A stretch of 64,000 nucleotides of DNA from Limihaloglobus sulfuriphilus. GTDB lineage: Bacteria; Planctomycetota; Phycisphaerae; Sedimentisphaerales; Sedimentisphaeraceae. Location of the stretch: the NCBI RefSeq assembly GCF_001999965.1, contig NZ_CP019646.1:3757125-3821124 (forward strand), read 5' to 3'. Both the position numbers and the translations under genes were made by a program. The notes beneath the pieces were generated by a model. The model was not told where the DNA came from and did not search any database. It worked only from the letters and a program-made list of their open reading frames with translations. Shown here piece by piece: positions 37,201 through 53,999 of the stretch; the first letter of the stretch is position 1; the number at the start of each line of letters is the position of its first letter.

Positions 37201-40200
37201 TTATTTCTGCTCTGGACAGCTGCTCCACTGATCGCGTGGTGGATAAGCCGGCCGATAAAGACTCACAAACCGGAGTTATCCGCCGAGCAGTTTATGTTCC
37301 TTCGCAAAATATCCCGACAAACATGGAGTTTCTTTGAGACGTTCGTCACAGAGAAGGAAAACTGGCTGCCGCCGGATAATTTTCAGGAAGTACCAAAACC
37401 GACAATCGCACACCGGACATCGCCCACAAATATGGGGCTGGCACTGCTTGCCAATCTTGCCGCGAGGGATTTTGGTTATGTCTCTATGGACAATATGATC
37501 CAGAGAACCCGAAATACTTTGAATACAATGACGCGGCTGAAACGTTACTGGGGGCATTTCTACAACTGGTATGATACAAAAACCCTCAGGCCGCTTCTGC
37601 CCAGGTATATTTCCAGCGTGGACAGCGGAAACCTCGCGGGACATCTCTTGACACTGGCTTCAGGGTTGAGACTGACGGCTGATGAGAATGTTTTTTCATC
37701 GGTTATAATCGAGGGGCTGCGGGATTCGGTTTTTATCCTGGTAGAGCTGGATCCTGACAATGATGACTTAAAGAAACTCGATGAGCGTTTATCTCAAACA
37801 CCCTCAAGCCTTGCAGAAATATATGAACTGGTACAAACCGCAGAAAATATGGCAGATGGTATCAAGGCTTCAAATGATATCGATCAGGCACATCAGGAAG
37901 AATTTAATACATGGATTGAGACTCTCAGACAAAATTGCCGGATGCACTTAGACGAAATGCTCGTTCTGGCTCCGTGGCTTGATATGCCGTCAGATGTCTT
38001 GTGTATAGAAAAACCGCATATCCAAAATGGCTCTGATCACGAGCAGACCGACGGCCCCGCTTCTGATTCAGCCGTGAGCCGGCTTGTTCAGAATCTTGAC
38101 CGGCTCAATCAGGGATTTTCTCTGCGTGATGCCGCCGGTTTCGGGCAGAATCTCTGCGCCTTGATTGATGATGCCCTCGGGGAAATACGGCAGGACCAGT
38201 CAAAACCCGGCCGCTGCCGCAATTCTCTGACCGAACTGGCTGCAAGTGTAAGAAAAACTGCCAAAGAGGCCGCTGAATATATGCAGATACTGGAAACTCT
38301 TGCACTGTCCGCTGATCAGCTCGGCATGATGGATTTTTCGTTTCTATTCGAGCCGTCCAAAGACCTCTTTGCAACCGGATTTGACGTTAACGAACTCAGG
38401 CGCGACACCAGTTACTACGATTTGCTGGCTTCTGAAGCGAGGCTGTGCAGTTATATCACAATCGCGATGGGGCAGGTGCCTCAGGAACACTGGTTCTCAC
38501 TTGGCCGCGTCATGACCGCTTCCAGGGGCAGACCTATACTTGTTTCCTGGAGCGGGTCGATGTTCGAATATCTGATGCCCCTGCTTGTGATGCCCAACTA
38601 TGAGGACACGCTGCTTGACAACACCTGCAAAGCTGCCGTTGAGCAGCATATAAAATACGGCAGGCTCAGAGGTGTGCCGTGGGGCATTTCAGAATCGGGC
38701 TATAATAGCAATGATGTTCATCTCAACTACCAGTACAGGGCTTTTGGTGTGCCGGGGCTTGGTCTCAAGAGAGGACTGGCTGAAGATCTGGTGATTGCTC
38801 CATACGCGACAGTAATGGCGCTGATGGTTGCCCCGCAGCAGGCGTGCCAGAATCTCCAGAGGCTTCAGGCCGAGGGGCGCTGCGGCTTATACGGTCTTTA
38901 TGAAGCCGTTGATTACACACCGTCGCGTCTGCCTCCCGACGAGACCAGCGTTACGATTCGTTCATTCATGGCGCACCATCAGGGCATGAGTTTTCTTTCG
39001 CTTCTGAGCGTTCTCAGAGATGCCCCCATGCAGCGCCGTTTCATGGCGTCAGCTCTTCTTAAGGCAAACGATTTACTGCTCCAGGAACGCATACCAAAGA
39101 CTGCTGTGAGTGTATTCGCCAAAGATTTGAGAAACGAAGAAACCCGCACCCTTTCCGTCAACGCAGAAGCGGCCATGCGAGTATTCAAAAATCCAAATCC
39201 GCCTATTCCAGAGGTGCACCTCTTATCCAACGGCAGGTACAATGTCGTTGTGAGCAGCGCGGGCGGCGGTTACAGCCGCTGGAACGATCTGGCTGTTACC
39301 CGCTGGAAAGAAGACTCAACACGCGACTGCTGGGGCACATTTGTCTATCTGCGTGACTTGGAATCCGGTGAATTCTGGTCAACAGCATATCAGCCGACTG
39401 TCTGCGAAGTAAAAAATTATGAAGCAATATTCATGCAGGCCAGGGCGGAATTCCGGCAGCATCTGCCGGGACTTGAAGTTCATACCGAATTGAGTGTTTC
39501 ACCGGAGGATGACGTTGAGCTGCGGCGTATTACAATCACAAACAGGGCGCCGTCTCCCCGTGATATTGAGCTTACAAGCTATGCCGAAGTGGTTCTGGCA
39601 CTGCCCGAAGACGATGCCGCCCACCCGGCTTTCAGCAACCTCTTCGTCCAGACAGAATTTGAGAAGGATTCCTCCGCCGTTCTCTGTACCCGAAGGGCCC
39701 GTTCTGAAGAAGAAACCCCTCCGTGGCTGCTTCACATGATGGTCGGCCATGGTGTTGATATGAGGGATATATGCTGTGAAACTGACCGGTCAAAATTTGT
39801 CGGCAGGGGCAGAAACCTTGCGTCACCGGCGGCTATGACGTCCAAAGGCCCCTTGTCAAACACATGCGGCTCAGTTCTGGATCCTATTGTTTCCTTAAGA
39901 GGCACCGTTACAGTTCCGCCCCATGGCAAGGTTACAGTGAGCGTCATTTCCGGCGTTACAGCCACCAGGCAGGAGGCGATTGGACATATACAAAAATATC
40001 AAAGCCCGCGTATGACTGACCGGGCATTTGATCTGGCGTGGACACACAGCCAGGTAACACTGCACCAGCTCAGCGCCACTGAAGCCGAGGCGCAGATATA
40101 CGGCCGTCTGGCAAGTGCTCTGATCTATACAGACCCCGCACGGCGTGCCGCCGCTTCTATTTTGAGAAGAAACAGAAAAGGCCAGAGCGGGCTTTGGACC

Positions 40201-43044
40201 TATGGTATCTCGGGCGACTGCCCGATCGTTCTGCTGTTCATAAGCGACACGTCAAATACTGATATCATACGCCAGCTGATACAGGCCCACTCCTATTGGC
40301 GGATTAAAGGGCTGACTGTTGAATTGGTTATTATAAATCAAGACATTACAGATTACCGGCAGTCACTCAAAGAACAGATAACATCTCTGATTGCTTCAGG
40401 TACAGAATCGCATACAATCGATAAGCCCGGAGGGATTTTCGTACGTCAGCTGGAACATATCCCCAATGAGGATATGCTTCTTCTTCAGTCCGCGGCGAGG
40501 ATTGTGCTCAGTGATGAAAAGGGGACCCTTGTTGAGCAGCTCAAACACAGAAGCGTTCTGGATTCGACCGTCCCGGAAATGATACCTACACGTCCCGCTG
40601 CGGTTGACTCTTCAGAACCTCTGCTTGAGCGAGAATTGATTTTCAACAACGGTTTTGGCGGCTTTACTCCCGACGGCAGCGAGTATGTCATCACTGTTAA
40701 GCCCGGCCGGATGACGCCGGCACCCTGGGTCAATGTTATCGCCGGCCCTGCTTTCGGCACTGTTGTATCTGAGAGCGGCTCTGCATACACGTGGGTTGAG
40801 AACTCGCATGAATTCCGTCTCACGACATGGAGCAACGACCCCGTCCAGGATACCGCCGGCGAGGCACTTTATATAAGAGACCAGCATACCGGCCAGTTCT
40901 GGTCACCTACGCCGCTGCCGGCAGGCGGCTCCACCCCATATGTTATCCGCCACGGCTTTGGATACACCGTTTTCGAACATACCGAAAACGGAATCGAATC
41001 CGAGCTCTGGATTTATGTGGCAATTGATGCGCCGGTAAAATTTTCTGTCTTAAAATTGCGGAACGTCTCTGATCGCCCAAGAAGGATTTCTGTTAACGGT
41101 TACTGGGAATGGGTCCTTGGCGATTTGAGAGAGAACAATCTGCTGCACGTTCAGACCGAAGTGGATTTGAAGACAGGGGCCTTGCTGGCTCGTAATTTCT
41201 ACAACACGGAATTCCGCGAACGCATTGCGTTTGTTGATGTCCAGAATTCAACGCGAACAGTAACCGGCGACCGCAAAGAGTTTATCGGCCGAAACGGCAA
41301 TCTTGCAAATCCGGCCTCACTTAAACGCGACAGGCTTTCAAACAAAACTGGTGCAGGCATGGATCCCTGCGGAGCGGTTCAGGTAGCTTTCGATTTGCCT
41401 GTGGGACAGGTAAAGGAAACCTGTTTTCGCCTCGGAGTCGGCCGCAGCAAGAGCGATGTACGTGAGCTGATCAATCGCTTCAGGCGCACGGGCTCATATG
41501 CAAATGCCCTTGATAATGTACGGGATTACTGGAGCCGAACACTGGGAGCTGTTAATGTAGATACTCCAGACCCTGCCGTAAACGTGCTGGCAAACGGATG
41601 GCTTATGTACCAGACAATCAGCAGCAGGATCTGGGGACGCACCGGATTTTATCAGTCCGGAGGCGCCTTTGGATTTCGTGACCAGCTGCAGGATGTCATG
41701 GCTGCTATTCACGCAGCGCCGGAACTTACACGCAGCCATCTTCTGCGTGCAGCGGCTCATCAATTCCGCAACGGTGATGTCCAGCATTGGTGGCACCCTC
41801 CGGCAGGGCGCGGCGTCCGCACACATTTTTCTGATGATTATCTCTGGCTGCCATACGCCACATGCAGGTACGTTGCCTGTGTTGCCGACACCGGAGTCCT
41901 GGACGAAAAGGTTCATTTCCTCGAAGGAAGGCTTCTAAATCCCAAAGAGGAGGCATATTACGATTTACCGAGCCGTTCAGACGATGCTGAGACGCTTTAC
42001 AGCCACTGCGTCAGAGCAATTGAATACGGGCTCAAATTCGGTGAACACGGACTGCCGCTTATCGGCTGCGGAGACTGGAATGACGGAATGAACCTGGTTG
42101 GCCACCAGGGACGCGGCGAAAGCGTCTGGCTGGCATTCTTCCTCTACGATGTGCTGATTCAGTTTTCTCAACTGGCTCTTTCACGCCATGACAACAGCTT
42201 TGCCCATCGCTGCATCAGCCAGGCCGCCCAGCTCAAGGAAAACATTGAACGGCACGGCTGGGACGGGCAATGGTACCGCCGCGCATACTTCGACAACGGA
42301 AGCCCCCTCGGCTCACATTCGAACCCTGAGTGTCAGATTGATTCCATCCCGCAAAGCTGGTCAGTCATCAGCGGTTACGGCGAAACGCTGAGGTCAGAAC
42401 AGGCGATGAAATCAGTGGAAAAACGTCTTGTGAAACGCGACACAAAAATCATACAGCTGTTTGATCCGCCTTTTGATAAATCTGATCTTAATCCAGGTTA
42501 TATCAAGGGGTACATGCCTGGTGTCCGTGAGAACGGCGGGCAATACACCCACGCTGCGGTATGGTCCACCATGGCGTTTGCAATGCTGGGAAAGAACGAG
42601 CTGGCATGGGAACTGTTTAATATGATCAATCCCGTAAACCACGGCTCCACTCCGCAGTCCATTGCGACATACAAGGTTGAACCATACGTAGTAGCCGCGG
42701 ATGTCTATGGCGTAGCGCCGCACGAGGGCAGGGGCGGCTGGACATGGTACACAGGTTCAGCGGGCTGGATGTACAGGCTTATCGTAGAAACACTGCTGGG
42801 GCTTAATCTTGAGGTTGACAAATTGCGGCTGGAACCGCGTATGCCGAAAACCTGGGACTCGTTTAAGATCCATTACAGGTACCGCCAGACTGTTTATCAT
42901 ATCGAGATTGCCCGAATCCCGCAGGGCTCGGCAGATACTGATAAGCTCTCAGTTGACGGGATTGAAATGCCTGATATGGTAATACCCCTTAAGGACGACC
43001 GAGTTGATCACCACGTCAGTATGAAAATTCGTTCGTCAGAATAA
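34249..43044 (+). CDS. NdvB-like cyclic beta-glucan synthase (GT84-glycoamylase-GH94)
   Basis: 2931 residues, the usual size for NdvB/Cgs proteins. Membrane segments occur near residues 420-490 and again near 825-1000. Between them is a GT84 glycosyltransferase: VVVPTMLTS, ITLDTDTQLP (about 636-645) and RHRWIRGDWQ (about 785). Next comes a glycoamylase-like domain (TSPTNMGLALLANLAARDFGY in parts near 1050; VSWSGSMFEYLMP near 1435) and a C-terminal GH94 phosphorylase-like part with RDQLQDVMA (about 2475), HQFRNGDVQHWWH and GCGDWNDGMN (about 2603), whose aspartate is the catalytic acid in the family. In rhizobia such proteins start, extend and cyclise beta-1,2-glucan at the inner membrane. AAAGGA precedes the ATG. 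The gene stands alone. Confidence 0.93.
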   Translation: MITKSNMSNFSFRWKNWKDGRAASGWDPNELPLRAELFTSEQLTLHAKTIAETHDVAVSRGPNNLLARLDQNEETLRDFNLSSLELTPEKHITPAAEWLLDNFYLIEEQIQMARRHLPRGYNRGLPRLTKGHSEGLPRVYDIVLEFISHVDAQIDAETLESFIAAYQEIAPLKLGELWAIPIMLRLGLIENLKRITNRLMIARKDSELANMWVDRLQNMEQKNPSHFVVVVADMAKTDIPLSSSFVAEFCKRLSRHSPTMLLARNWLEQRLGEQGLSIEQLIHLDTQNQAADQVSVSHSIASFRALISMDWKQFVEDLSKTEQILRTDPANIYHKMDFSTRDRYRHSVEFFANHTRFSEIEVSRAAVKLAAHNAERKGPDDRTAHVGYYLIDKGQALLGHKLKLRWPLRTLVQRTIKRFPLTYYAGGIGLLTLLGSIWFARQAQELGVHQWELVFFTLTFVLCVSQLAVSTINWLSTIILEPATLPRLDYKSGIEADCRTMVVVPTMLTSADGIDKLLENMEIHYLANRDDNLHFALLTDLKDAPEEVMPDDQYLIQMAEDGVNTLNRKYPCKTKNRFFLFHRPRRWNPGEGVWMGYERKRGKLEDLNNLLRGGRTDGFSVIAGNIDTLPKIKYVITLDTDTQLPRDAARLLVGTMAHPLNLPRFDSEKGIVTEGYGIMQPRVGVSLPTARTSWFVRLNAVDVGIDPYTLAVSDVYQDVFNDASFIGKGIYDVDAFQRAMAGRFPENIILSHDLLESCHARCALVTDVELYEEFPSRFNVDAGRRHRWIRGDWQIARWLLPKVKGGGSQKIKNPLSGLSQWKIFDNLRRSLVPVAFMILMLGHWLIIPEVSGLGPLLVIGIIILPGLLSALADFLRKPKELPWTIHVRTVAGSFVRQLCQVILILVFLPYEALLSLDAIIRTIFRLTVTHKNLLQWQVSSELERKDSLSLRGFYVRMWIEPVIAAAMGLFLTFIQPSWLYTALPLFLLWTAAPLIAWWISRPIKTHKPELSAEQFMFLRKISRQTWSFFETFVTEKENWLPPDNFQEVPKPTIAHRTSPTNMGLALLANLAARDFGYVSMDNMIQRTRNTLNTMTRLKRYWGHFYNWYDTKTLRPLLPRYISSVDSGNLAGHLLTLASGLRLTADENVFSSVIIEGLRDSVFILVELDPDNDDLKKLDERLSQTPSSLAEIYELVQTAENMADGIKASNDIDQAHQEEFNTWIETLRQNCRMHLDEMLVLAPWLDMPSDVLCIEKPHIQNGSDHEQTDGPASDSAVSRLVQNLDRLNQGFSLRDAAGFGQNLCALIDDALGEIRQDQSKPGRCRNSLTELAASVRKTAKEAAEYMQILETLALSADQLGMMDFSFLFEPSKDLFATGFDVNELRRDTSYYDLLASEARLCSYITIAMGQVPQEHWFSLGRVMTASRGRPILVSWSGSMFEYLMPLLVMPNYEDTLLDNTCKAAVEQHIKYGRLRGVPWGISESGYNSNDVHLNYQYRAFGVPGLGLKRGLAEDLVIAPYATVMALMVAPQQACQNLQRLQAEGRCGLYGLYEAVDYTPSRLPPDETSVTIRSFMAHHQGMSFLSLLSVLRDAPMQRRFMASALLKANDLLLQERIPKTAVSVFAKDLRNEETRTLSVNAEAAMRVFKNPNPPIPEVHLLSNGRYNVVVSSAGGGYSRWNDLAVTRWKEDSTRDCWGTFVYLRDLESGEFWSTAYQPTVCEVKNYEAIFMQARAEFRQHLPGLEVHTELSVSPEDDVELRRITITNRAPSPRDIELTSYAEVVLALPEDDAAHPAFSNLFVQTEFEKDSSAVLCTRRARSEEETPPWLLHMMVGHGVDMRDICCETDRSKFVGRGRNLASPAAMTSKGPLSNTCGSVLDPIVSLRGTVTVPPHGKVTVSVISGVTATRQEAIGHIQKYQSPRMTDRAFDLAWTHSQVTLHQLSATEAEAQIYGRLASALIYTDPARRAAASILRRNRKGQSGLWTYGISGDCPIVLLFISDTSNTDIIRQLIQAHSYWRIKGLTVELVIINQDITDYRQSLKEQITSLIASGTESHTIDKPGGIFVRQLEHIPNEDMLLLQSAARIVLSDEKGTLVEQLKHRSVLDSTVPEMIPTRPAAVDSSEPLLERELIFNNGFGGFTPDGSEYVITVKPGRMTPAPWVNVIAGPAFGTVVSESGSAYTWVENSHEFRLTTWSNDPVQDTAGEALYIRDQHTGQFWSPTPLPAGGSTPYVIRHGFGYTVFEHTENGIESELWIYVAIDAPVKFSVLKLRNVSDRPRRISVNGYWEWVLGDLRENNLLHVQTEVDLKTGALLARNFYNTEFRERIAFVDVQNSTRTVTGDRKEFIGRNGNLANPASLKRDRLSNKTGAGMDPCGAVQVAFDLPVGQVKETCFRLGVGRSKSDVRELINRFRRTGSYANALDNVRDYWSRTLGAVNVDTPDPAVNVLANGWLMYQTISSRIWGRTGFYQSGGAFGFRDQLQDVMAAIHAAPELTRSHLLRAAAHQFRNGDVQHWWHPPAGRGVRTHFSDDYLWLPYATCRYVACVADTGVLDEKVHFLEGRLLNPKEEAYYDLPSRSDDAETLYSHCVRAIEYGLKFGEHGLPLIGCGDWNDGMNLVGHQGRGESVWLAFFLYDVLIQFSQLALSRHDNSFAHRCISQAAQLKENIERHGWDGQWYRRAYFDNGSPLGSHSNPECQIDSIPQSWSVISGYGETLRSEQAMKSVEKRLVKRDTKIIQLFDPPFDKSDLNPGYIKGYMPGVRENGGQYTHAAVWSTMAFAMLGKNELAWELFNMINPVNHGSTPQSIATYKVEPYVVAADVYGVAPHEGRGGWTWYTGSAGWMYRLIVETLLGLNLEVDKLRLEPRMPKTWDSFKIHYRYRQTVYHIEIARIPQGSADTDKLSVDGIEMPDMVIPLKDDRVDHHVSMKIRSSE

Positions 43045-43242: not shown

Positions 43243-44781
43243 ATGAAGAGATTTACGTTTGTTTTTACATTGTTAATATTTGCATCTTTAGCGGCCGCGG
43301 AAATTCGTTTGCCGGCTATCTTCGGTGATAACATGGTCTTACAGCGCCAAGACAAGGTCGCCGTCTGGGGTTGGGCAAATCCCGGCGAAAAAGTTAAGGT
43401 CTCACCGTCGTGGGGCTGGTTCGGCTTCTATTCACAAAAAACATCAGCCGATGAGAACGGCCGCTGGAAGGTATATATCAAGACCGGCAAGGCAAAGGGG
43501 CCCCAGAAACTTACAATAAAAGGCGAGCAAAATACCGTTGAGCTCTCCAATATTCTTCTCGGAGAGGTCTGGCTCTGCTCTGGCCAGTCAAACATGGCAT
43601 GGACTCTTGGTGCGTTCGAAAATACAGAACAGGACATAGCCGCGGCGGATTTTCCCCAGATGCGCCTTTTTACCGTGCAAAGGGAAATCTCGCGGCAGCC
43701 GCTGGATGACTGCAGCGGGAAGTGGGAGCCGTGTTCACCCAAGACTGCGGCGGCTTTTTCTGCTGTGGCTTATTATTTCGGCCGTACGCTGCATAACGAG
43801 CTTGATGTGCCGGTTGGCCTTATCAACAGCTCCTGGGGCGGTACTGTTGCCGAAGCGTGGACCAGCCGCGATGCACTGGCAGAAGGTGGGTTTGAGTCTA
43901 TATTTGACCGCCAGAGAGAGCATGAAGAAAATTTCGAAAAAACTTACGAGCAATACCTCAAGAACCTGGAGAACTGGAGAGCCCAGGCCGAAAAAGCCAA
44001 AGAAGAAGGTAAGCCCGAACCTCCTAAGCCCGGTGAGCCAAAAGACTTCCATGCAAACAGCCCCAGTGCTCTCTACAATGCAATGATCAATCCGCTGGTA
44101 CCTTTCACATTCAAGGGAACTATCTGGTATCAGGGAGAATCGAACCGCACCAGGGCGTTTGAGTATAAGAGCCTTTTCCCGACGCTTATCCAAAACTGGC
44201 GGAATGTGTTTGACTATAAAAAGATGCCGTTCTATTTTGTTCAGCTGGCATCTTACCGTTACGGAAGCGGAGATCAGCCGCTTTATCTCGCCGAACTTCG
44301 CGAGGCACAGCTGCTGACCCTGAAGGGTGTGCCCAATACAGGAATGGCGGTAACTACCGATATTAGCGATATTAAAAATATTCACCCCCATCAGAAAGAG
44401 CAGGTTGGAAAACGTCTGGCACTGTGGGCACTTGCAAAGGATTACGGCAAAAGAGTACAGTATTCCGGCCCGATATACGACGAAATGGAGGTCGAAAACG
44501 GGCGGATAAGGATACATTTCCGCCACACTGCCGATGGGTTGGCTGCCAAAGACGGGCCTCTTGAGTGGTTTGAAATCGCAGGTCTTGACGGAGAATTTGT
44601 AGAGGCAAACGCCGTTATCGACGATGATACCGTAATCGTCTCAAGCCCTGATGTACCCGAACCGGCGCATGTGCGTTTCGGATACCATGAGCTGGCAGAG
44701 CCGAACCTCTTTAACTCGGCAGGCCTGCCGGCGTCGCCTTTCCGGACAGACTCGCTGCCCTGGCTGACAGAACCTAAATAA
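43243..44781 (+). CDS. Sialate O-acetylesterase family protein, secreted
   Basis: 512 residues. Signal peptide MKRFTFVFTLLIFASLAAA, then IRLPAIFGDNMVLQRQDKVAVWGWANPGE as parts of the usual opening, the SGNH-type nucleophile motif in VWLCSGQSNMAWTL, and the region GLINSSWGGTVAEAW; the late catalytic D/H motif is in ISDIKNIHPHQKEQVGKRLA. Members remove acetyl groups from sialic acid or other acetylated sugars such as xylan. An inserted charged stretch (about 240-270, K/E/P-rich) is unusual. The umuD gene begins one base after its stop. Its last ~74 codons are included in the 2412-bp duplication. Confidence 0.92.
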   Translation: MKRFTFVFTLLIFASLAAAEIRLPAIFGDNMVLQRQDKVAVWGWANPGEKVKVSPSWGWFGFYSQKTSADENGRWKVYIKTGKAKGPQKLTIKGEQNTVELSNILLGEVWLCSGQSNMAWTLGAFENTEQDIAAADFPQMRLFTVQREISRQPLDDCSGKWEPCSPKTAAAFSAVAYYFGRTLHNELDVPVGLINSSWGGTVAEAWTSRDALAEGGFESIFDRQREHEENFEKTYEQYLKNLENWRAQAEKAKEEGKPEPPKPGEPKDFHANSPSALYNAMINPLVPFTFKGTIWYQGESNRTRAFEYKSLFPTLIQNWRNVFDYKKMPFYFVQLASYRYGSGDQPLYLAELREAQLLTLKGVPNTGMAVTTDISDIKNIHPHQKEQVGKRLALWALAKDYGKRVQYSGPIYDEMEVENGRIRIHFRHTADGLAAKDGPLEWFEIAGLDGEFVEANAVIDDDTVIVSSPDVPEPAHVRFGYHELAEPNLFNSAGLPASPFRTDSLPWLTEPK

Positions 44782-44782
44782 T

Positions 44783-45220
44783 ATGTCAAAAGAAATTGAA
44801 GCCATATACATTCCTGATACCTCGACAGAGCTTGACTGCCTTCTGTTTACGGCGAGTGTGCCGGCTGGTTTTCCCTCTCCGGCAGCCGATTATGAGGAAA
44901 ACCGGCTCGATCTGAACAAACATCTGATCCAGAATCCGGCTTCAACTTTTTTTGTGCGTGTCAGCGGCGATTCAATGGTCGGTGCAGGGATACACTCCGG
45001 CGATATTCTCATTGTTGACCGAAGCCTCGAGCCTCGCAGCGGCAAGGTTGTCATCGCCGTCGTTGACGCAGAGCTGACGGTAAAACGCATCCGGTTCAAA
45101 AATTCGCCCAAACGGGTCATACTTGAATCGGCTAACGAAAAATACCCCGACAGGGAAATCTCCGGCGATTCAGAATTCGAGGTCTGGGGCGTAGTTACAA
45201 ACGTAATACACCGGCTATGA
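44783..45220 (+). CDS. umuD: UmuD-like LexA-family autoprotease, copy 1
   Basis: 145 residues. The cleavage site lies in PAGFPSPA (A28-G29), the nucleophile is S64 in SGDSM and the general-base lysine is K101 (LTVKRIRF), matching UmuD geometry (S60/K97 in E. coli, shifted by four). On DNA damage UmuD is trimmed to UmuD', which partners UmuC as polymerase V. The stop overlaps the umuC start (ATGA, 4 bases), so they are translationally coupled. It starts one base after the esterase gene, with no room for a private promoter unless it lies within that gene; I saw no obvious LexA box. Confidence 0.93.
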
Positions 45221-46488
45221 ACAGGATTTTCGCACTTATAGACTGTAATAATTTTTATGTTTCCTGTGAACGGGTGTTTGACCCTTCACTACGCAGCAGA
45301 CCGGTTGTGGTGCTTTCCAACAACGACGGCTGTATTATTTCCCGCTCCAACGAGGCAAAAGCACTGGGCATCAAGATGGGGACGCCCGTATTTGAGGTTG
45401 AATCATTTCTGAAAAAGAATTCCGTTGCCGTATGTTCTTCTAATTACGCCCTTTACGCTGATATGTCATCCCGGGTTATGCAGACCCTCGAGCAGTTCAG
45501 CCCAAAGATGGAGGTATATTCCATTGATGAGGCGTTTCTGGAATTCTCCGGCATTGGCGGCAGCCTCAAATCCATCGGCAGCGATATCCGGCGCAGAGTG
45601 TATAAGTGCAGCGGCATACCGGTCTCCGTCGGCTTCGGCTCGACAAAGACCCTCGCCAAGCTGGCCAACGGCATCGCGAAAAAATCAGTACGTGCCGGCG
45701 GCGTACTTGACCTGTGCGGACCGGCAAGACATCTTCAAATTGCCTTGCAGCGAACCGCGGCAGGCGATGTCTGGGGCATTGGCTATCGCAGCGCCAGAAA
45801 ACTCCGCGGCATGGGCATCGATACCGCCGCGGCTCTTGCACGGGCAGACGAGAGGCTCATACAGCCGCGATTCGGTATAACCGGCCTCCGTACGGTCTAT
45901 GAGCTCAGGGGGCACTGCTGTTTTGAGCTGGAGGAAAACCCGCCCGCGAAAAAGAGCGTTACGGTTTCGCGGTCATTTTCAAGGGCGGTTACATCGAAAC
46001 GTGAGATCAGCGAAGCAGTTACAGCATTCATCGCCAGGGCTGCCGAGAAACTGCGGGGTGAAAAGCTCGCCGCGAATTTCATGAATATATATGCCGCCTC
46101 CGGCAGCTACTCAAACGGAAAAAGAGCTGCTCGGGTTTACAAAACCTTCCCCCTTGAGTTTGAAACCGCTACAAACGATACACACGAAATACTGCGGCTG
46201 GCGGGCGATTTTGCCCAAAGTCTCTATTCAGCCGGAATACATTACAAAAAAGCCGGCGTTATCTTCCACAACCTTGTGCCCCAGGACCGTATCCAGCGAA
46301 ATCTTTTTGACAGCCGCGACCGGACACGTTTCAGGCGGCTGATGCAAACCCTTGACAAGATTAACGATAGCGGCAAATCAAGGGTATTCTTCGCCGGCGA
46401 GGGAATAGAAAAGCCCTGGCAGACAAAATTCCGACGCAGAAGCCCCCGCTACACAACCAGCTGGAACGAGCTGCCGCTGGCACACTGA
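45217..46488 (+). CDS. umuC: UmuC-like Y-family DNA polymerase, copy 1
   Basis: 423 residues. Catalytic aspartate D9 in [15 protein letters not shown], the D104-E105 pair in [12 protein letters not shown], helix-hairpin-helix region [16 protein letters not shown], and C-terminal little-finger domain. Full length for UmuC. It carries out error-prone translesion synthesis with UmuD'. It is identical in translation to the copy at 47629-48900. The ORF ends about 170 bases before element E1. Confidence 0.95.
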
Positions 46489-46654
46489 TTCTTGTAGATG
46501 TGTGTGATATTTTTTTTGTTTAGATACGTAACACGTTGTTTGTGATAGACTTGCGTTTTTGTTTCACGTCAACAGTAGTTTGGGGTAAGTTCGTGATATA
46601 CAATTGTTTACGGCAGAGCAGATGACAGAGGCCTTAGAGTCGGATTTTTAAGAG

Positions 46655-46972
46655 GAGAATTAAAGAGAAGTTGAGACCCTTTGTTTCGCTATCATTACGT
46701 ATCTCCTTTACTTTCAGAATGTTACACTCGCTAAATATGTATTCTTTAAAAGTATTATTCATGTCATCCGTTTTTTCGAGCCCGCGACAGGTGCTATAAA
46801 CTTAAATACCGAGCCCAGCCGGTCACAACCTGTTCGTATTCGCTAATCACTTTACCCATCTTATCATAAATGAATCAGGTTTCAAGGATATAACACATTT
46901 AAACAGTAATCATAAAGTATTCATTTGTAAGACCTTACAAAAATAAAGAGTCTCAACCCTTTTAATTTACTC
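46655..46972 (+). mobile_element. Element E, copy E1 (~318 bp, non-autonomous)
   Basis: Starts GAGAATTAAAGAG and ends CAACCCTTTTAATTTACTC. It shares its sequence with E2, E3 and E4. Its left end is a degenerate form of the inverted right end. No transposase gene fits in it. On the minus strand a short frame has YDKMGKVISEYEQVV, resembling RHS/YD repeats, but it is interrupted. Confidence 0.7.
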
Positions 46973-47193
46973 TTGAGTGGTTTGAAATCGCAGGTCTTGA
47001 CGGAGAATTTGTAGAGGCAAACGCCGTTATCGACGATGATACCGTAATCGTCTCAAGCCCTGATGTACCCGAACCGGCGCATGTGCGTTTCGGATACCAT
47101 GAGCTGGCAGAGCCGAACCTCTTTAACTCGGCAGGCCTGCCGGCGTCGCCTTTCCGGACAGACTCGCTGCCCTGGCTGACAGAACCTAAATAA
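46971..47193 (+). pseudogene. 3' fragment of the sialate O-acetylesterase gene
   Basis: Identical to 44559-44781, the last ~74 codons of the intact esterase, now fused to the right end of element E1. It has no start and is a by-product of the tandem duplication. It keeps the immediate upstream context of umuD copy 2, but any promoter located further upstream in the esterase gene is lost. Confidence 0.92.
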
Positions 47194-47194
47194 T

Positions 47195-47632
47195 ATGTCA
47201 AAAGAAATTGAAGCCATATACATTCCTGATACCTCGACAGAGCTTGACTGCCTTCTGTTTACGGCGAGTGTGCCGGCTGGTTTTCCCTCTCCGGCAGCCG
47301 ATTATGAGGAAAACCGGCTCGATCTGAACAAACATCTGATCCAGAATCCGGCTTCAACTTTTTTTGTGCGTGTCAGCGGCGATTCAATGGTCGGTGCAGG
47401 GATACACTCCGGCGATATTCTCATTGTTGACCGAAGCCTCGAGCCTCGCAGCGGCAAGGTTGTCATCGCCGTCGTTGACGCAGAGCTGACGGTAAAACGC
47501 ATCCGGTTCAAAAATTCGCCCAAACGGGTCATACTTGAATCGGCTAACGAAAAATACCCCGACAGGGAAATCTCCGGCGATTCAGAATTCGAGGTCTGGG
47601 GCGTAGTTACAAACGTAATACACCGGCTATGA
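47195..47632 (+). CDS. umuD: UmuD-like LexA-family autoprotease, copy 2
   Basis: Translation identical to the gene at 44783-45220, with cleavage site A28-G29, S64 and K101 intact. It is preceded by the esterase 3' fragment and element E1 rather than the full esterase gene, so if the first copy is driven from the esterase promoter this copy must use another. It overlaps umuC copy 2 by four bases. Confidence 0.93.
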
Positions 47633-48900
47633 ACAGGATTTTCGCACTTATAGACTGTAATAATTTTTATGTTTCCTGTGAACGGGTGTTTGACCCTTCA
47701 CTACGCAGCAGACCGGTTGTGGTGCTTTCCAACAACGACGGCTGTATTATTTCCCGCTCCAACGAGGCAAAAGCACTGGGCATCAAGATGGGGACGCCCG
47801 TATTTGAGGTTGAATCATTTCTGAAAAAGAATTCCGTTGCCGTATGTTCTTCTAATTACGCCCTTTACGCTGATATGTCATCCCGGGTTATGCAGACCCT
47901 CGAGCAGTTCAGCCCAAAGATGGAGGTATATTCCATTGATGAGGCGTTTCTGGAATTCTCCGGCATTGGCGGCAGCCTCAAATCCATCGGCAGCGATATC
48001 CGGCGCAGAGTGTATAAGTGCAGCGGCATACCGGTCTCCGTCGGCTTCGGCTCGACAAAGACCCTCGCCAAGCTGGCCAACGGCATCGCGAAAAAATCAG
48101 TACGTGCCGGCGGCGTACTTGACCTGTGCGGACCGGCAAGACATCTTCAAATTGCCTTGCAGCGAACCGCGGCAGGCGATGTCTGGGGCATTGGCTATCG
48201 CAGCGCCAGAAAACTCCGCGGCATGGGCATCGATACCGCCGCGGCTCTTGCACGGGCAGACGAGAGGCTCATACAGCCGCGATTCGGTATAACCGGCCTC
48301 CGTACGGTCTATGAGCTCAGGGGGCACTGCTGTTTTGAGCTGGAGGAAAACCCGCCCGCGAAAAAGAGCGTTACGGTTTCGCGGTCATTTTCAAGGGCGG
48401 TTACATCGAAACGTGAGATCAGCGAAGCAGTTACAGCATTCATCGCCAGGGCTGCCGAGAAACTGCGGGGTGAAAAGCTCGCCGCGAATTTCATGAATAT
48501 ATATGCCGCCTCCGGCAGCTACTCAAACGGAAAAAGAGCTGCTCGGGTTTACAAAACCTTCCCCCTTGAGTTTGAAACCGCTACAAACGATACACACGAA
48601 ATACTGCGGCTGGCGGGCGATTTTGCCCAAAGTCTCTATTCAGCCGGAATACATTACAAAAAAGCCGGCGTTATCTTCCACAACCTTGTGCCCCAGGACC
48701 GTATCCAGCGAAATCTTTTTGACAGCCGCGACCGGACACGTTTCAGGCGGCTGATGCAAACCCTTGACAAGATTAACGATAGCGGCAAATCAAGGGTATT
48801 CTTCGCCGGCGAGGGAATAGAAAAGCCCTGGCAGACAAAATTCCGACGCAGAAGCCCCCGCTACACAACCAGCTGGAACGAGCTGCCGCTGGCACACTGA
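47629..48900 (+). CDS. umuC: UmuC-like Y-family DNA polymerase, copy 2
   Basis: Translation identical to the gene at 45217-46488; all catalytic residues (D9, D104, E105) are kept, so both copies should be functional. The lack of differences, synonymous ones included as far as I could compare, points to a very recent duplication or to an assembly effect. Confidence 0.95.
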
Positions 48901-49066
48901 TTCTTGTAGATGTGTGTGATATTTTTTTTGTTTAGATACGTAACACGTTGTTTGTGATAGACTTGCGTTTTTGTTTCACGTCAACAGTAGTTTGGGGTAA
49001 GTTCGTGATATACAATTGTTTACGGCAGAGCAGATGACAGAGGCCTTAGAGTCGGATTTTTAAGAG

Positions 49067-49384
49067 GAGAATTAAAGAGAAGTTGAGACCCTTTGTTTCG
49101 CTATCATTACGTATCTCCTTTACTTTCAGAATGTTACACTCGCTAAATATGTATTCTTTAAAAGTATTATTCATGTCATCCGTTTTTTCGAGCCCGCGAC
49201 AGGTGCTATAAACTTAAATACCGAGCCCAGCCGGTCACAACCTGTTCGTATTCGCTAATCACTTTACCCATCTTATCATAAATGAATCAGGTTTCAAGGA
49301 TATAACACATTTAAACAGTAATCATAAAGTATTCATTTGTAAGACCTTACAAAAATAAAGAGTCTCAACCCTTTTAATTTACTC
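49067..49384 (+). mobile_element. Element E, copy E2
   Basis: Counterpart of E1 in duplication copy A2 (offset 2412). Directly after it comes a second copy of the 19-base right end, then the 203-bp repeat array. Confidence 0.7.
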
Positions 49385-49407
49385 CAACCCTTTTAATTTA
49401 CTCCTGC

Positions 49408-49776
49408 GGCGTGGGCTTGGCGAGCGAATAACTGTATGTAGTTTCTACCGTTTACAGTTGTTGGCGGTTATTCTGGTGTTTTTGCGTGACACAGTGTGTT
49501 TGCGTAACCGCTCCATTACTGTCGCGGCTCTGATGGTGTTGCAGGGTTAGATGGTGTATTTCGTAGCAATCCGAGCCGCGAATGTGAATGAGCGGTAATG
49601 TCGGCAAGCCGGCGCGGGATTGGCAGCCGAATAACTGTATGGAGTTTCTACCGTTTACAGTTGCCTGCGGTTATTCTGGTTTTTTATTGTGATACAGTGT
49701 GTTTGCGTAACCGCTCCGTTACTGTCGCGGCTCTGATGGTGTTGCAGGGTTAGATGGTATATTTCGTAACAATCCG
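49408..49776. repeat. 203-bp tandem repeat array, block 1 (about 1.8 units)
   Basis: Units begin GGCGTGGGCTTGG at 49408 and GGCGCGGGATTGG at 49611. Each unit has two nested inverted repeats: GAATAACTGTA with TACAGTT...GTTATTC, and TAACCGCTC...CGCGGCTC with GAGCCGCG...GAGCGGTAA, so it can form two long hairpins. The block with the following gene fragment matches 51869-53039 (offset 2465) with a few base changes. Confidence 0.85.
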
Positions 49777-49884
49777 CGTGCAACAAAAGGGGGTCTGACT
49801 CCCTTCTTTATCTGGTAGAGTTAAGAGTGAAAGTTTTTCTGGTCAGACCTGTCAACTTTTCACTCTTAACTTTTAACTCTTAGC

Positions 49885-50682
49885 TTAATAGATGTTATCC
49901 CTGTATGCGTATGCCTGGTATTGGCAGGTTATCTCCGCAGTCTCGCCGGCTTTTACGTCGAGATTCCAGGTAACATTTGTCCGCGGGTTTACAGAACCAA
50001 GCGGGGTGGAGACTTTTTCTTTTGTTTCTTTGTGTGATTTATCAATCACCCTGCCTATGAATGTACGCTCGATCTCGAGAGATACATCTTCGGCCTTGTG
50101 GTTTGTTACCGAGAGCTTACATTCAAAGGTTATCAGGTCGTACTTATTGCCGTAAAACGTCTTTACTTCCCGCTCGCGGCGGCTCTCATAGTCGAGTTTT
50201 TCCGCCTTTATATCAAGAGCCTGGGTTATTTTGACGGTAGCCTCCTGGCCGATGGGGGTATAATTCAATGTGTCCTGTCCCAGGATTAAATCGTTCTTAA
50301 CGATCTGAGCCGGAGATGTTGTCAGGGGCATTCCGGTTGTATTGTCAAACCTGATGCAGTGCCATATTTCTTCTTTGCTTGAGTCGTCGCCGCGATTGTA
50401 ACGCTGCACCGGCTCGGGCTGATCAACTTTCCACGTATAAATATGCTTGTATTCAAGCTCTTCTGTGAACAGCGGATAATAGCCCGTTTCGTCAGTTTTT
50501 AGTGTTACTGAATCTACCGGGTAGAAAAACAGGTCTTCGTTCGAGATTCCCTGTGCGGCGGTTCCATAATCAGGGGGATAATTAAAAGGGTTGGGACTCT
50601 TTGTTTCGCTATCATTACGTATCTCTCTTACTTTAAAAACGTTACACTCGCTAAATCTGTATTTTTTAAAAGTATTATTCAT
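49885..50682 (-). pseudogene. Truncated DUF4139 gene fused to a start inside element E3
   Basis: The last ~230 codons match the C-terminus of the intact gene at 52350-53999 (identical protein apart from silent changes noticed in the DNA). At 50574/50575 the homology stops and the frame runs on into element E3, which supplies 36 codons and an ATG (MNNTFKKYRFSECNVFK). The chimera therefore lacks the signal peptide and the N-terminal half. It has only a weak ribosome-binding site. Could be translated, but is most simply a broken copy. Confidence 0.85.
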
Positions 50683-50892
50683 GTTATCCGTTTTTTGTAG
50701 CCCGCGACAGGTGCTATAAACTTAAATACCGAGCCCAGCCGGTCACAACCTGTTCATATTCGCTAATCACTTTGCCCATCTTATCATAAATGAATCAGGT
50801 TTCAAGGATATAACACATTTAAACAGTAATCATAAAGTATTCATTTGTAAGACTTTACAAAAATAAAGAGTCTCAACCCTTTTAATTTACTC
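50575..50892 (+). mobile_element. Element E, copy E3 (best-preserved ends)
   Basis: Left end GATAATTAAAAGGGTTGGGA followed by CTCTTTGTT; the inverse of the right end reads AATTAAAAGGGTTGAGAC then TCTTTATT, so about 26 bases match with two or three differences. These are convincing terminal inverted repeats of a MITE-like element. It separates the truncated DUF4139 gene from a umuC fragment. No target duplication is evident because the two sides come from different loci. Confidence 0.75.
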
Positions 50893-51188
50893 TGCGGCTG
50901 GCGGGCGATTTTGCCCAAAGTCTCTATTCAGCCGGAATACATTACAAAAAAGCCGGCGTTATCTTCCACAACCTTGTGCCCCAGGACCGTATCCAGCGAA
51001 ATCTTTTTGACAGCCGCGACCGGACACGTTTCAGGCGGCTGATGCAAACCCTTGACAAGATTAACGATAGCGGCAAATCAAGGGTATTCTTCGCCGGCGA
51101 GGGAATAGAAAAACCCTGGCAGACAAAATTCCGACGCAGAAGCCCCCGCTACACAACCAGCTGGAACGAGCTGCCGCTGGCACACTGA
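50893..51188 (+). pseudogene. 3' fragment of umuC
   Basis: Matches 46193-46488, the last ~98 codons of umuC, with a few base changes (for example AAACCCTGG for AAGCCCTGG). It starts right at the E3 right end (ACTC|TGCGGCTGG) and is followed by the same trailing sequence as the full copies, but more diverged than A1 and A2 are from each other. So this third copy is older. Confidence 0.92.
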
Positions 51189-51354
51189 TTCTTGTAGATG
51201 TGTGTGATATTTTTTTTGTTTAGATACGTAATACGTTGTTTGTGATGGATTTACGTTTTTGTTTCACGTCAACAGTAGTTTGAAGTAAGCTCTTGATATA
51301 CAATTATTTACGGCAGAGCAGATGACAGAGGCCTTAGAGTCGGATTTTTAAGAG

Positions 51355-51651
51355 GAGAATTAAAGAGAAGTTGAGACCCTTTGTTTCGCTATCATTACGT
51401 ATCTCCTTTACTTTCAGAATGTTACACTCGCTAAATCTGTAATCTTTAAAAGTATTATTCATGTTATCCGTTTTTTCGAGCCCGCGACAGGTGCTATAAA
51501 CTTAAATACCGAGCTTAGCCGTTCACGACCTGTTCGTATTCGCTAATCACTTTGCCCATCTTATCATAAATGAATCAGGTTTTAAGAACCATAAAGTGTT
51601 CATTTGTAAGACCTTACAAAAATAAAGAGTCTCAACCCTTTTAATTTACTC
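51355..51651 (+). mobile_element. Element E, copy E4 (internal deletion)
   Basis: Same left end as E1, but about 22 bases are missing in the right half (after GAATCAGGTTT). Its right end is followed by an extra 15-base partial copy (TCTTTTAATTTACTC), then the 203-bp array. Several substitutions from E1. Confidence 0.7.
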
Positions 51652-51669
51652 TCTTTTAATTTACTCTGC

Positions 51670-52241
51670 GGCGTGGGCTTGGCGAGCGAATAACTGTATG
51701 TAGTTTCTACCGTTTACAGTTGTTGGCGGTTATTCTGATTTTTCTGCGTGACACAGAGTGTTTGCGTAACCGCTCCATTACTGTCGCGGCTCTGGCAGTG
51801 TTGCAGGGTTAGATCGTGTATTCCGTAGCAATCCGAGCCGCGAATGTGAATGAGCGGTACTGTCAGCAACCCGGCGTGGGCTTGGCGAGCGAATAACTGT
51901 ATGTAGTTTCTACCGTTTACAGTTGTTGGCGGTTATTCTGGTGTTTTTGCGTGACACAGTGTGTTTGCGTAACCGCTCCATTACTGTCGCGGCTCTGATG
52001 GTGTTGCAGGGTTAGATGGTGTATTTCGTAGCAATCCGAGCCGCGAATGTGAATGAGCGGTAATGTCGGCAAGCCGGCGCGGGATTGGCAGCCGAATAAC
52101 TGTATGGAGTTTCTACCGTTTACAGTTGCCTGCGGTTATTCTGGTTTTTTATTGTGATACAGTGTGTTTGCGTAACCGCTCCGTTACTGTCGCGGCTCTG
52201 ATGGTGTTGCAGGGTTAGATGGTATATTTCGTAACAATCCG
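51670..52241. repeat. 203-bp tandem repeat array, block 2 (about 2.8 units)
   Basis: Units begin at 51670, 51873 and 52076, exactly 203 bases apart; the last is cut short. The second and third units match block 1 (49408-49776), while the first is more diverged. Followed on the right by GGGGGTCTGACTCCC and a GTTAAGAGTGAAAG/CTTTTCACTCTTAAC inverted repeat just past the 3' end of the DUF4139 gene (also present in block 1). Confidence 0.88.
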
Positions 52242-52349
52242 CGTGCAACAAAAGGGGGTCTGACTCCCTTCTTTATCTGGTAGAGTTAAGAGTGAAAGTT
52301 TTTCTGGCCAGACCTGTCAACTTTTCACTCTTAACTTTTAACTCTTAGC

Positions 52350-53999
52350 TTAATAGATGTTATCCCTGTATGCGTATGCCTGGTATTGGCAGGTTATCTC
52401 CGCAGTCTCGCCGGCTTTTACGTCGAGATTCCAGGTAACATTTGTCCGCGGGTTTACAGAACCAAGCGGGGTGGAGACTTTTTCTTTTGTTTCTTTGTGT
52501 GATTTATCAATCACCCTGCCTATGAATGTACGCTCGATTTCGAGAGATACATCTTCGGCCTTGTGGTTTGTTACCGAGAGTTTACATTCAAAGGTTATCA
52601 GGTCGTACTTATTGCCGTAAAACGTCTTTACTTCCCGCTCGCGGCGGCTCTCATAGTCGAGTTTTTCCGCCTTTATATCGAGAGCCTGGGTTATCTTGAC
52701 GGTAGCCTCCTGGCCGATGGGGGTATAATTCAATGTGTCCTGTCCCAGGATTAAATCGTTCTTAACGATCTGAGCCGGAGATGTTGTCAGGGGCATTCCG
52801 GTTGTATTGTCAAACCTGATGCAGTGCCATATCTCTTCTTTGCTTGAGTCGTCGCCGCGATTGTAACGCTGCACCGGCTCGGGCTGATCAACTTTCCACG
52901 TATAAATATGCTTGTATTCAAGCTCCTCTGTGAACAGCGGATAATAGCCCGTTTCGTCAGTTTTTAGTGTTACTGAATCTACCGGGTAGAAAAACAGGTC
53001 TTCGTTCGAGATTCCCTGTGCGGCGGTTCCATAATCAGGAGCTGCCGGCGCGGCGGATTCTGCCATGTCAAACGCCGCCTTCTGCATCATGACATTGCCG
53101 CCCATACCACGGGCAAGCCGCCGGCTTTCATCACTGCCGGAGCCTGCAAGCTGATTGAGAAAATCGGAGAGGCTGTATTTCATTCCCAGCGGACTGTAGG
53201 TGTCGGCGAACTGGATATTCGGAAAACCGGTAGCCAGCAGAAGCTCTACACCCTCCAGGTCTGCCGCCTCGTTGATAACAAGGCCCTTGGCGGTAAATCT
53301 GGCCTTATCCTCTGTTATATCAAATATATAGCTGGGCGACCAGGTAATTCCTTTGGCAAGATAGCATAGACCAAGTTTGCCGCCGGAAGTATTGTCTTTA
53401 AACGTAACTTTCAGCTCTACTCCGGAGGTTGTGATAATTGCATCGCTGGATATGTCGGCATCCGAGAAATCAACCGCCCATACCTGCTGCGGGTTAATCG
53501 CTGTGAGTCCTTGCTCTGTCTTTACCAGCATCATCTGCGGCTCGCTGTACCATGGCCTGCGGTTTCGGCCGTTATCCGCCTTTCCCGGCTCATACGGCCT
53601 TATCGGCGGCTGCGGCTCGATTTTGGGAACAAGCTGTATCTCGCCGACAACGACCTGTTCTTCGCCGTAGCGGATTGTAGCTGTTTTACCGACGTTGCCG
53701 CTGAGAAGCTGCATTAGCGATACGGCCTGCTCTGTTTCATGGATATCCACCTCAGAGGCAACAGCGGATTTCAGCATCAGCCCGCCGCCGCTGCTCAGCC
53801 AGCAGCTGCCCAGCGAGGGAACAACCTGCGGGCGGATTATAACCGAGTCTGCGCCGGCGGGGACATCGACCTGAGAAACAAAGAAACCCATCCCGTTTTT
53901 AAACAGGGCAACCTTGAGTATATCCTCTTTCAGGATTTCTTCACTGTAGGCGGGCAAACAAATTGCTGTGATGGCTAAAAATAAAATCGTTTTTCGCAT
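52350..53999 (-). CDS. DUF4139 domain protein, secreted (intact copy)
   Basis: 549 residues. Signal peptide MRKTILFLAITAICLPAYS. The body has the DUF4139 features: N-terminal beta-rich part (LKVALFKNGMGFF, PQVVPSLGSCW), central GLCYLAKGITWSPSYIFDI, and a C-terminal part ending QALDIKAEKLDYESRRE and GETAEITCQYQAY. Function unknown; members are envelope proteins sometimes near mucoidy or S-layer genes. AGGAGA lies six bases before the ATG. Its 3' 693 bases are duplicated at 49885-50574. Confidence 0.85.
   Translation of the reverse strand: MRKTILFLAITAICLPAYSEEILKEDILKVALFKNGMGFFVSQVDVPAGADSVIIRPQVVPSLGSCWLSSGGGLMLKSAVASEVDIHETEQAVSLMQLLSGNVGKTATIRYGEEQVVVGEIQLVPKIEPQPPIRPYEPGKADNGRNRRPWYSEPQMMLVKTEQGLTAINPQQVWAVDFSDADISSDAIITTSGVELKVTFKDNTSGGKLGLCYLAKGITWSPSYIFDITEDKARFTAKGLVINEAADLEGVELLLATGFPNIQFADTYSPLGMKYSLSDFLNQLAGSGSDESRRLARGMGGNVMMQKAAFDMAESAAPAAPDYGTAAQGISNEDLFFYPVDSVTLKTDETGYYPLFTEELEYKHIYTWKVDQPEPVQRYNRGDDSSKEEIWHCIRFDNTTGMPLTTSPAQIVKNDLILGQDTLNYTPIGQEATVKITQALDIKAEKLDYESRREREVKTFYGNKYDLITFECKLSVTNHKAEDVSLEIERTFIGRVIDKSHKETKEKVSTPLGSVNPRTNVTWNLDVKAGETAEITCQYQAYAYRDNIY

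Follow-up and report, generated by a model that had tools for sequence, protein, structure and literature searches.

Paired, covarying hairpins in the 203-bp tandem units of Limihaloglobus sulfuriphilus as putative orphan sites of a class 3 Y1 HuH transposase

Two tandem arrays were analyzed in a 64,000-nucleotide stretch of the Limihaloglobus sulfuriphilus chromosome (contig NZ_CP019646.1, positions 3,757,125 to 3,821,124), which is called the window in the following and whose own numbering is used throughout. The repeated units are quite probably orphaned, BIME/REPIN-like non-autonomous DNA elements, in which a short hairpin represents the putative site of a class 3 Y1 HuH enzyme that was either lost or acts in trans. 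The units contain this hairpin in inverted pairs, the hairpin is dispersed in this and in other genomes, its stem covaries, it occurs beside class 3 genes of other genomes, and protein and profile searches of the genome of L. sulfuriphilus itself detected no such gene. The hairpin belongs to the type seen next to class 3 Y1 HuH genes and most likely represents the recognition site of the class 3 enzyme. In the initial annotation, either a structured RNA or a DNA recombination substrate had been considered; the DNA branch is strengthened by the short covarying hairpin beside class 3 genes of other genomes, whereas the RNA branch gained no support.

Repeat arrays, element architecture and local duplications

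Both arrays lie on the plus strand and show a period of 203 bp. Array 1 (49407-49776) comprises 1.8 units and array 2 (51669-52241) 2.8 units according to Tandem Repeats Finder, which agrees with the earlier count of about two and three. The exact 203-base spacing noted in the initial annotation holds within the window, but the motif spacing at four other array loci of the same genome is 184, 202, 184, and 201, so that 203 is not a fixed period.

A full element has a length of 165 bp and consists of a hairpin with a CCGA foot on the left (hairpin B'), an interior of about 115 bp and a hairpin with a CAGA foot on the right (hairpin A). The two hairpins, of about 20 nt each, are inverted with their feet pointing outward. 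One full element is located in array 1 (49571-49735) and two are located in array 2 (51833-51997 and 52036-52200), all on the plus strand. Hairpin B' is read on the plus strand at 49571-49595, 51833-51857, and 52036-52060, and hairpin A on the minus strand at 49508-49532, 49711-49735, 51770-51794, 51973-51997, and 52176-52200. Neighboring elements are separated by a linker of 38 bp (49533-49570, 51795-51832, and 51998-52035, plus strand), which together with the 165-bp element gives the 203 bp of the period. The left-most element of each window array is without the B' hairpin and starts at, or at most 16 bp from, the right end of a copy of element E.

Element E is MITE-like, about 317 bp long and has inverted ends. 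It gave 27 matches in the genome, eight of them covering at least 280 of 319 bases. As reported earlier, each array lies next to a right end of E: the copy at 49066-49384 (plus strand) directly precedes array 1, and the right end of the copy at 51354-51652 (plus strand) lies 16 bp ahead of array 2. Further copies are located at 50576-50893 (plus strand), between two duplicated segments, and at 46654-46973. At 3.823 Mb of the chromosome, a 69-bp piece of a unit is enclosed by two E copies, from which it follows that E entered a pre-existing array there. The E ends beside the window arrays are probably secondary as well.

The two arrays are both real, but they are not independent. Positions 49407-50574 match 51872-53039 with 99.4%, and array 1 was copied from the final units of array 2 together with the 3' end of a DUF4139 gene. 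About 110 bp past each array, the 3' end of such a gene is found on the minus strand, in one case as an ORF of 549 amino acids (52350-53999) and in the other as a truncated ORF of 265 amino acids (49885-50682), which scores below the Pfam cut-off. Since one array was copied from the other, a two-unit and a three-unit array cannot be taken as independent evidence for array growth. The unequal exchange proposed earlier is compatible with the data, but a segmental duplication accounts for how the two window arrays differ.

Upstream of array 1, a further duplication was identified between 44558-46972 and 46970-49384 (100% match over 2415 bases), which holds a gene pair coding for Peptidase_S24 and impB/mucB/samB (UmuD/UmuC-like) proteins. 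The region from 44558 to 53039 contains nested segmental duplications with E copies at or near the joints. Additionally, an ORF of 2931 amino acids was observed at 34249-43044 of the window.

Hairpin consensus, dispersal and class 3 Y1 HuH genes

Written on the strand of the foot, the hairpin consensus is CnGAG-CCGC-GA-NN-GTNA-NN-GA-GCGG, and every full unit contains this motif in two inverted versions. Five short oligonucleotide sequences, of which three represent the window motif, adopt the drawn hairpin with DNA parameters (z -1.6 to -2.6).

The hairpin is not confined to the arrays; it is also found singly at scattered sites. Searching the L. sulfuriphilus genome (one contig, 3.87 Mb) with one unit resulted in 28 matches, and a pattern search with at most three mismatches resulted in 35 sites, compared to none for the reversed pattern. 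By blastn with the unit, matches were obtained in 12 of 39 relatives; they are short and lie almost wholly within two stretches of the unit, which correspond to the two inverted versions of the motif. In 12 relatives chosen for the motif, sites were present in 12 of 12 and the control gave none (among the matches listed). A scan of named genomes revealed at least 120 stretches with the hairpin. The 80 titles among the matches listed belong mostly to Planctomycetota and Acidobacteriota (including Solibacter and Bryobacterales); one Verrucomicrobiia, two Deltaproteobacteria and an unplaced bacterium were also among them. Furthermore, 16 stretches of viral contigs hold the hairpin. None of six exact 19-20-base strings of the hairpin was found in the PMC papers searched.

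Most copies lie outside of crude ORF calls. This applies to 86 of 156 motifs in the loci of the named genomes (12% of the sequence being non-coding), to 19 of 28 in relatives of the order (19% non-coding), and to 24 of 26 deduplicated exact sites in the loci of L. sulfuriphilus (33% non-coding).

For class 3 TnpA_Y1 proteins of Planctomycetes, Acidobacteria, and Proteobacteria, atypical hairpins that carry a CnGA foot on the 5' side have been described on the flanks (Quentin et al., 2018, PMC6006769). In the part of that text used here, the proteins are characterized by the motifs NHVH, W[TA], and YV[VI][AENY]EQ, about 600 copies of the class 3-type hairpin are given for Solibacter usitatus, and it is proposed that the proteins may stand between IS200-type and REP transposases, their sites being termed "atypical secondary structures." The CCGA and CAGA feet in the window conform to CnGA; the copies from the named-genome scan do not count in this respect, because CAGA was forced there.

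At one of 30 Y1_Tnp loci taken from ten motif-bearing genomes of the named-genome scan (L271, a Solibacter MAG), the gene carries the hairpin on both sides, and its protein shows NHVH, WA, and YVVAEQ. With this protein as query, 54 genomes in a sample of 392 from the phylum were found to have a relative, and the best locus of each of 30 of the 54 genomes, excluding L271, formed the set of class 3-like loci. Within 600 bp and with at most three mismatches, the hairpin was found at 11 of these 30 loci, in nine cases on both sides, compared to 6 of 1500 shuffled class 3 flanks and none of 64 other Y1 loci, which include class 3 genes (L118 and L119, identical with L324 and L325) and some members of a weaker class 3-like subfamily. 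All five class 3-like proteins submitted to Pfam were assigned to Y1_Tnp, and in a 16-row alignment of class 3-like proteins the two histidines as well as W, Y, and Q are fully conserved.

The association was also seen by architecture. When the stem sequence was left free, and pairing, the GA/GA mismatch and a G..A loop were required, 10 of 36 class 3 loci were positive with five different stem sequences. None of 20 loci of the weaker subfamily was positive, and the two hits among 64 other loci are class 3 genes again (L118 and L119). A strict CnGA foot is present at five of the ten hairpin-bearing class 3 loci; the others have ACGA, GCGA, or GTGA.

On the other side of the balance, 19 of the 30 class 3-like loci have no hairpin within 600 bp at up to three mismatches. 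The class 3 gene L302 of G002, a genome of the same family, is flanked by a longer, different palindrome instead of the CCGC hairpin. The class 3 gene of G029 (L320) has no hairpin within 600 bp, with 23 sites in this genome among the matches listed, and at the class 3 genes of G023 and G027 the flanking hairpins have a CCTG stem, unlike the CCGC version which is dispersed in these genomes. In the order of the window, the CCGC hairpins are therefore largely apart from the class 3 genes detected. In addition, L298 and L309 do not retain the GA/GA mismatch.

The palindrome at L302 (CCGAG...CTCTG, at 1100-1350 and 2107-2206 of the locus) shows in part a tandem spacing of 97 bp with a linker of about 46 bp and may be related to the window arrays as a sister version. 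At L304, a class 3 gene lies between runs of hairpins at 87-bp spacing (1030-1315 and the right flank), so tandem hairpin arrays occur beside the enzyme gene, too. Moreover, a second hairpin family with a TTTAG foot (TTTAGCC...) was observed in the same order beside the weaker class 3-like subfamily (L330, L334, L345, L346, L347, and others). It is present at 9 of 20 loci of this subfamily, compared to 1 of 36 loci with strong class 3 genes and 7 of 62 loci with other Y1 genes, where several of the same genes recur. In 5 of 27 motif loci, it adjoins the CnGA hairpin as a mosaic.

In the single-contig genome of L. sulfuriphilus, no class 3 gene was detected, neither with the L271 protein nor with a profile at E 0.01. 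With the same kind of profile search, strong members (E below 1e-40) were found in two of four same-family genomes (G001 and G002) and in five other genomes of the order (G019, G022, G023, G027, and G029). The genome itself carries five Y1_Tnp genes, and paired hairpins with outward feet resemble the ends of an element. The units might hence be remnants of an IS200/IS605-like insertion sequence or MITE moved in trans by a resident transposase, such as the product of one of these genes. We regard this as unlikely, as no hairpin lies within 600 bp of the five genes, which were rejected as partners for this reason, or of 59 other Y1 loci, and the hairpin flanks class 3 genes instead. The nearest case is one site with three mismatches about 0.8 kb from a Y1 match (L059). 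Two Y1 genes of relatives were likewise unconvincing: at L121 the motif is about 0.8 kb away, and at L122 it lies beyond an ORF of 298 amino acids from the Y1 gene.

Covariation, folding and orientation

In the pattern of the named-genome scan, only the two NN positions were free, all others being fixed and the CAGA foot forced; the constancy of GA/GA was imposed by the search patterns. At the free positions, the NN/NN dinucleotides are complementary in 170 of 184 instances, with nine kinds of dinucleotides (among the matches listed). Counting each distinct 23-mer once, they are complementary in 25 of 35 (among the matches listed), compared to 4.1 on average and at most 13 in 10,000 shuffles.

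The same was observed inside the genome of L. sulfuriphilus, where a diverged single element (L025) has the same paired ends and an interior identity of 59-66 out of 113-115 positions with the array elements. In six of the eight array elements (w2, w3, L123, L125a, L125b, and L126), nine out of the 54 positions of hairpins and feet deviate from L025. Three both-sided pair changes, of which one results in a G.T pair in w3, two bases of the loops and the free base of the foot account for all nine. L124a and L124b differ from L025 at two and three further positions, respectively.

The longer structures behave differently. The nested inverted repeats described in the initial annotation are present in the unit: the arms at 49507-49534 and 49569-49596 are 79% complementary, and there is also a GAATAAC...GTTATTC hairpin. 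The unit at 51672-51874 folds better than dinucleotide shuffles, as RNA on the plus strand (z -3.58) and on the minus strand (z -3.01), each with none of 200 shuffles as good, and as DNA (z -2.48, 5 of 200 as good). However, the long hairpins lack support from covariation. Among the eight full elements of this genome, a both-sided change was found in only one of 52 predicted pairs (covariation term -0.25); inclusion of the diverged L025 as ninth element led to 5 of 56 pairs and a term of +1.02. The covariation sits in the two short hairpins of about 20 nt and not in the long ones.

Covariation may also result from RNA folding, if the units were transcribed as structured non-coding RNA, e.g., as an array of sRNAs or UTR hairpins. 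The good folding of the unit on either strand is in line with this, and GTNA/GNNA loops as well as tandem GA mismatches are also common in RNA. Between codirectional genes, the CnGA strand and the gene strand coincide in 7 versus 1 cases in the order relatives, which leans the same way; in the named genomes (18 versus 14) and in L. sulfuriphilus (8 versus 5), though, the orientation is mixed, and overall the hairpin has no constant strand relative to genes. Transcribed RNA seems improbable, given this mixture, the single both-sided change in 52 pairs of the long hairpins of eight elements, and the fact that the hairpin brackets a transposase gene family. Known RNA families were ruled out for the window, in which Rfam matches at the gathering score are restricted to rRNA and tRNA.

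Although segmental duplications are plain in the region, a mere tandem duplication of local sequence with incidental hairpins and no mobile element is hardly conceivable and already contradicted by the occurrence of single hairpins dispersed across phyla, their compensatory changes and the same paired ends in the diverged single element.

Relation to known systems and proposed mechanism

The interpretation of the units as orphaned elements of class 3 type can be compared to three described systems. The class 3 TnpA_Y1 system, as far as the cited text of PMC6006769 goes, is similar in the CnGA foot, the small gene-flanking hairpins, the many copies per genome, the occurrence in Planctomycetes and Acidobacteria and the protein motifs NHVH, W[TA], and YV[VI]..Q. 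The comparison of the hairpins is based on the foot, as given in that text. Flanking of class 3 genes was found elsewhere, i.e., at L271 in addition to the 11 loci mentioned above, and the copies in L. sulfuriphilus are numerous and mostly extragenic, but with 35 sites fewer than the roughly 600 stated there for S. usitatus. Unlike in that system, no class 3 gene was found in the genome of the window, and the hairpins are paired in 165-bp elements and arrays. In view of this negative result, the units do not form a complete class 3 REPtron and are orphan copies at most.

The REP, BIME, and REPIN elements (PMC3733652) are likewise short, dispersed hairpins that occur preferentially outside of ORFs, in inverted pairs and partly in arrays. 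Two inverted REPs as one unit, the arrangement of a BIME or REPIN, are seen in the eight full array elements and in the one diverged single element. These elements go with class 2 TnpA_REP (RAYT) transposases, and GTAG and CGTC families of REPs are described in the consulted part of PMC3733652; in contrast, the foot here is CnGA, not GTAG, GTGG or CGTC, and the associated transposases are class 3-like. Hence, GTAG REPs (class 2 TnpA_REP, foot GT[AG]G) and CGTC REPs (CGTC tetranucleotide at one end) were ruled out by the CAGA and CCGA feet.

With the ends of IS200/IS605 elements, the hairpin shares a foot, or guide, 5' of a small hairpin and presumably the recognition by a Y1 HuH enzyme. IS200/IS605 elements are characterized by TnpA-mediated excision as ssDNA circles and by insertion on the 3' side of a fixed target. 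In contrast to these elements, no defined insertion sequence is present here, and in the loci read the hairpins are mostly free-standing.

By analogy with the IS200/IS605 and REP systems, a class 3 enzyme would have recognized the hairpin in single-stranded DNA and, guided by the foot, cut close to it, which may have spread the hairpins singly or in pairs. The class 3 gene would later have been lost from this lineage or have acted in trans. Tandem arrays could have formed by recombination or by mis-integration between pairs, and the present form of the two window arrays would be due to later insertion of E and segmental duplication.

More speculatively, class 3 Y1 transposases might use a structural code of their own in single-stranded DNA, which consists of a CnGA-type foot and a 4-bp stem of free sequence, followed in most cases by a tandem GA/GA mismatch and then by 2 bp and a GNNA loop. 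The pairs of the stem would turn over in a compensatory manner, while mismatch and loop would usually be kept, and orphan arrays might be mobilized in trans or adopted by the host.

We regard the units as orphan, paired and tandem class 3 REP-like elements, in which the structure of the site is drawn more sharply than in the cited text of PMC6006769. The precise, covarying hairpin consensus makes recognition by the class 3 enzyme directly testable. With its single-contig chromosome, on which tandem paired hairpins occur and no class 3 gene was found, L. sulfuriphilus provides a clean case for the persistence of REP-like elements without their transposase.
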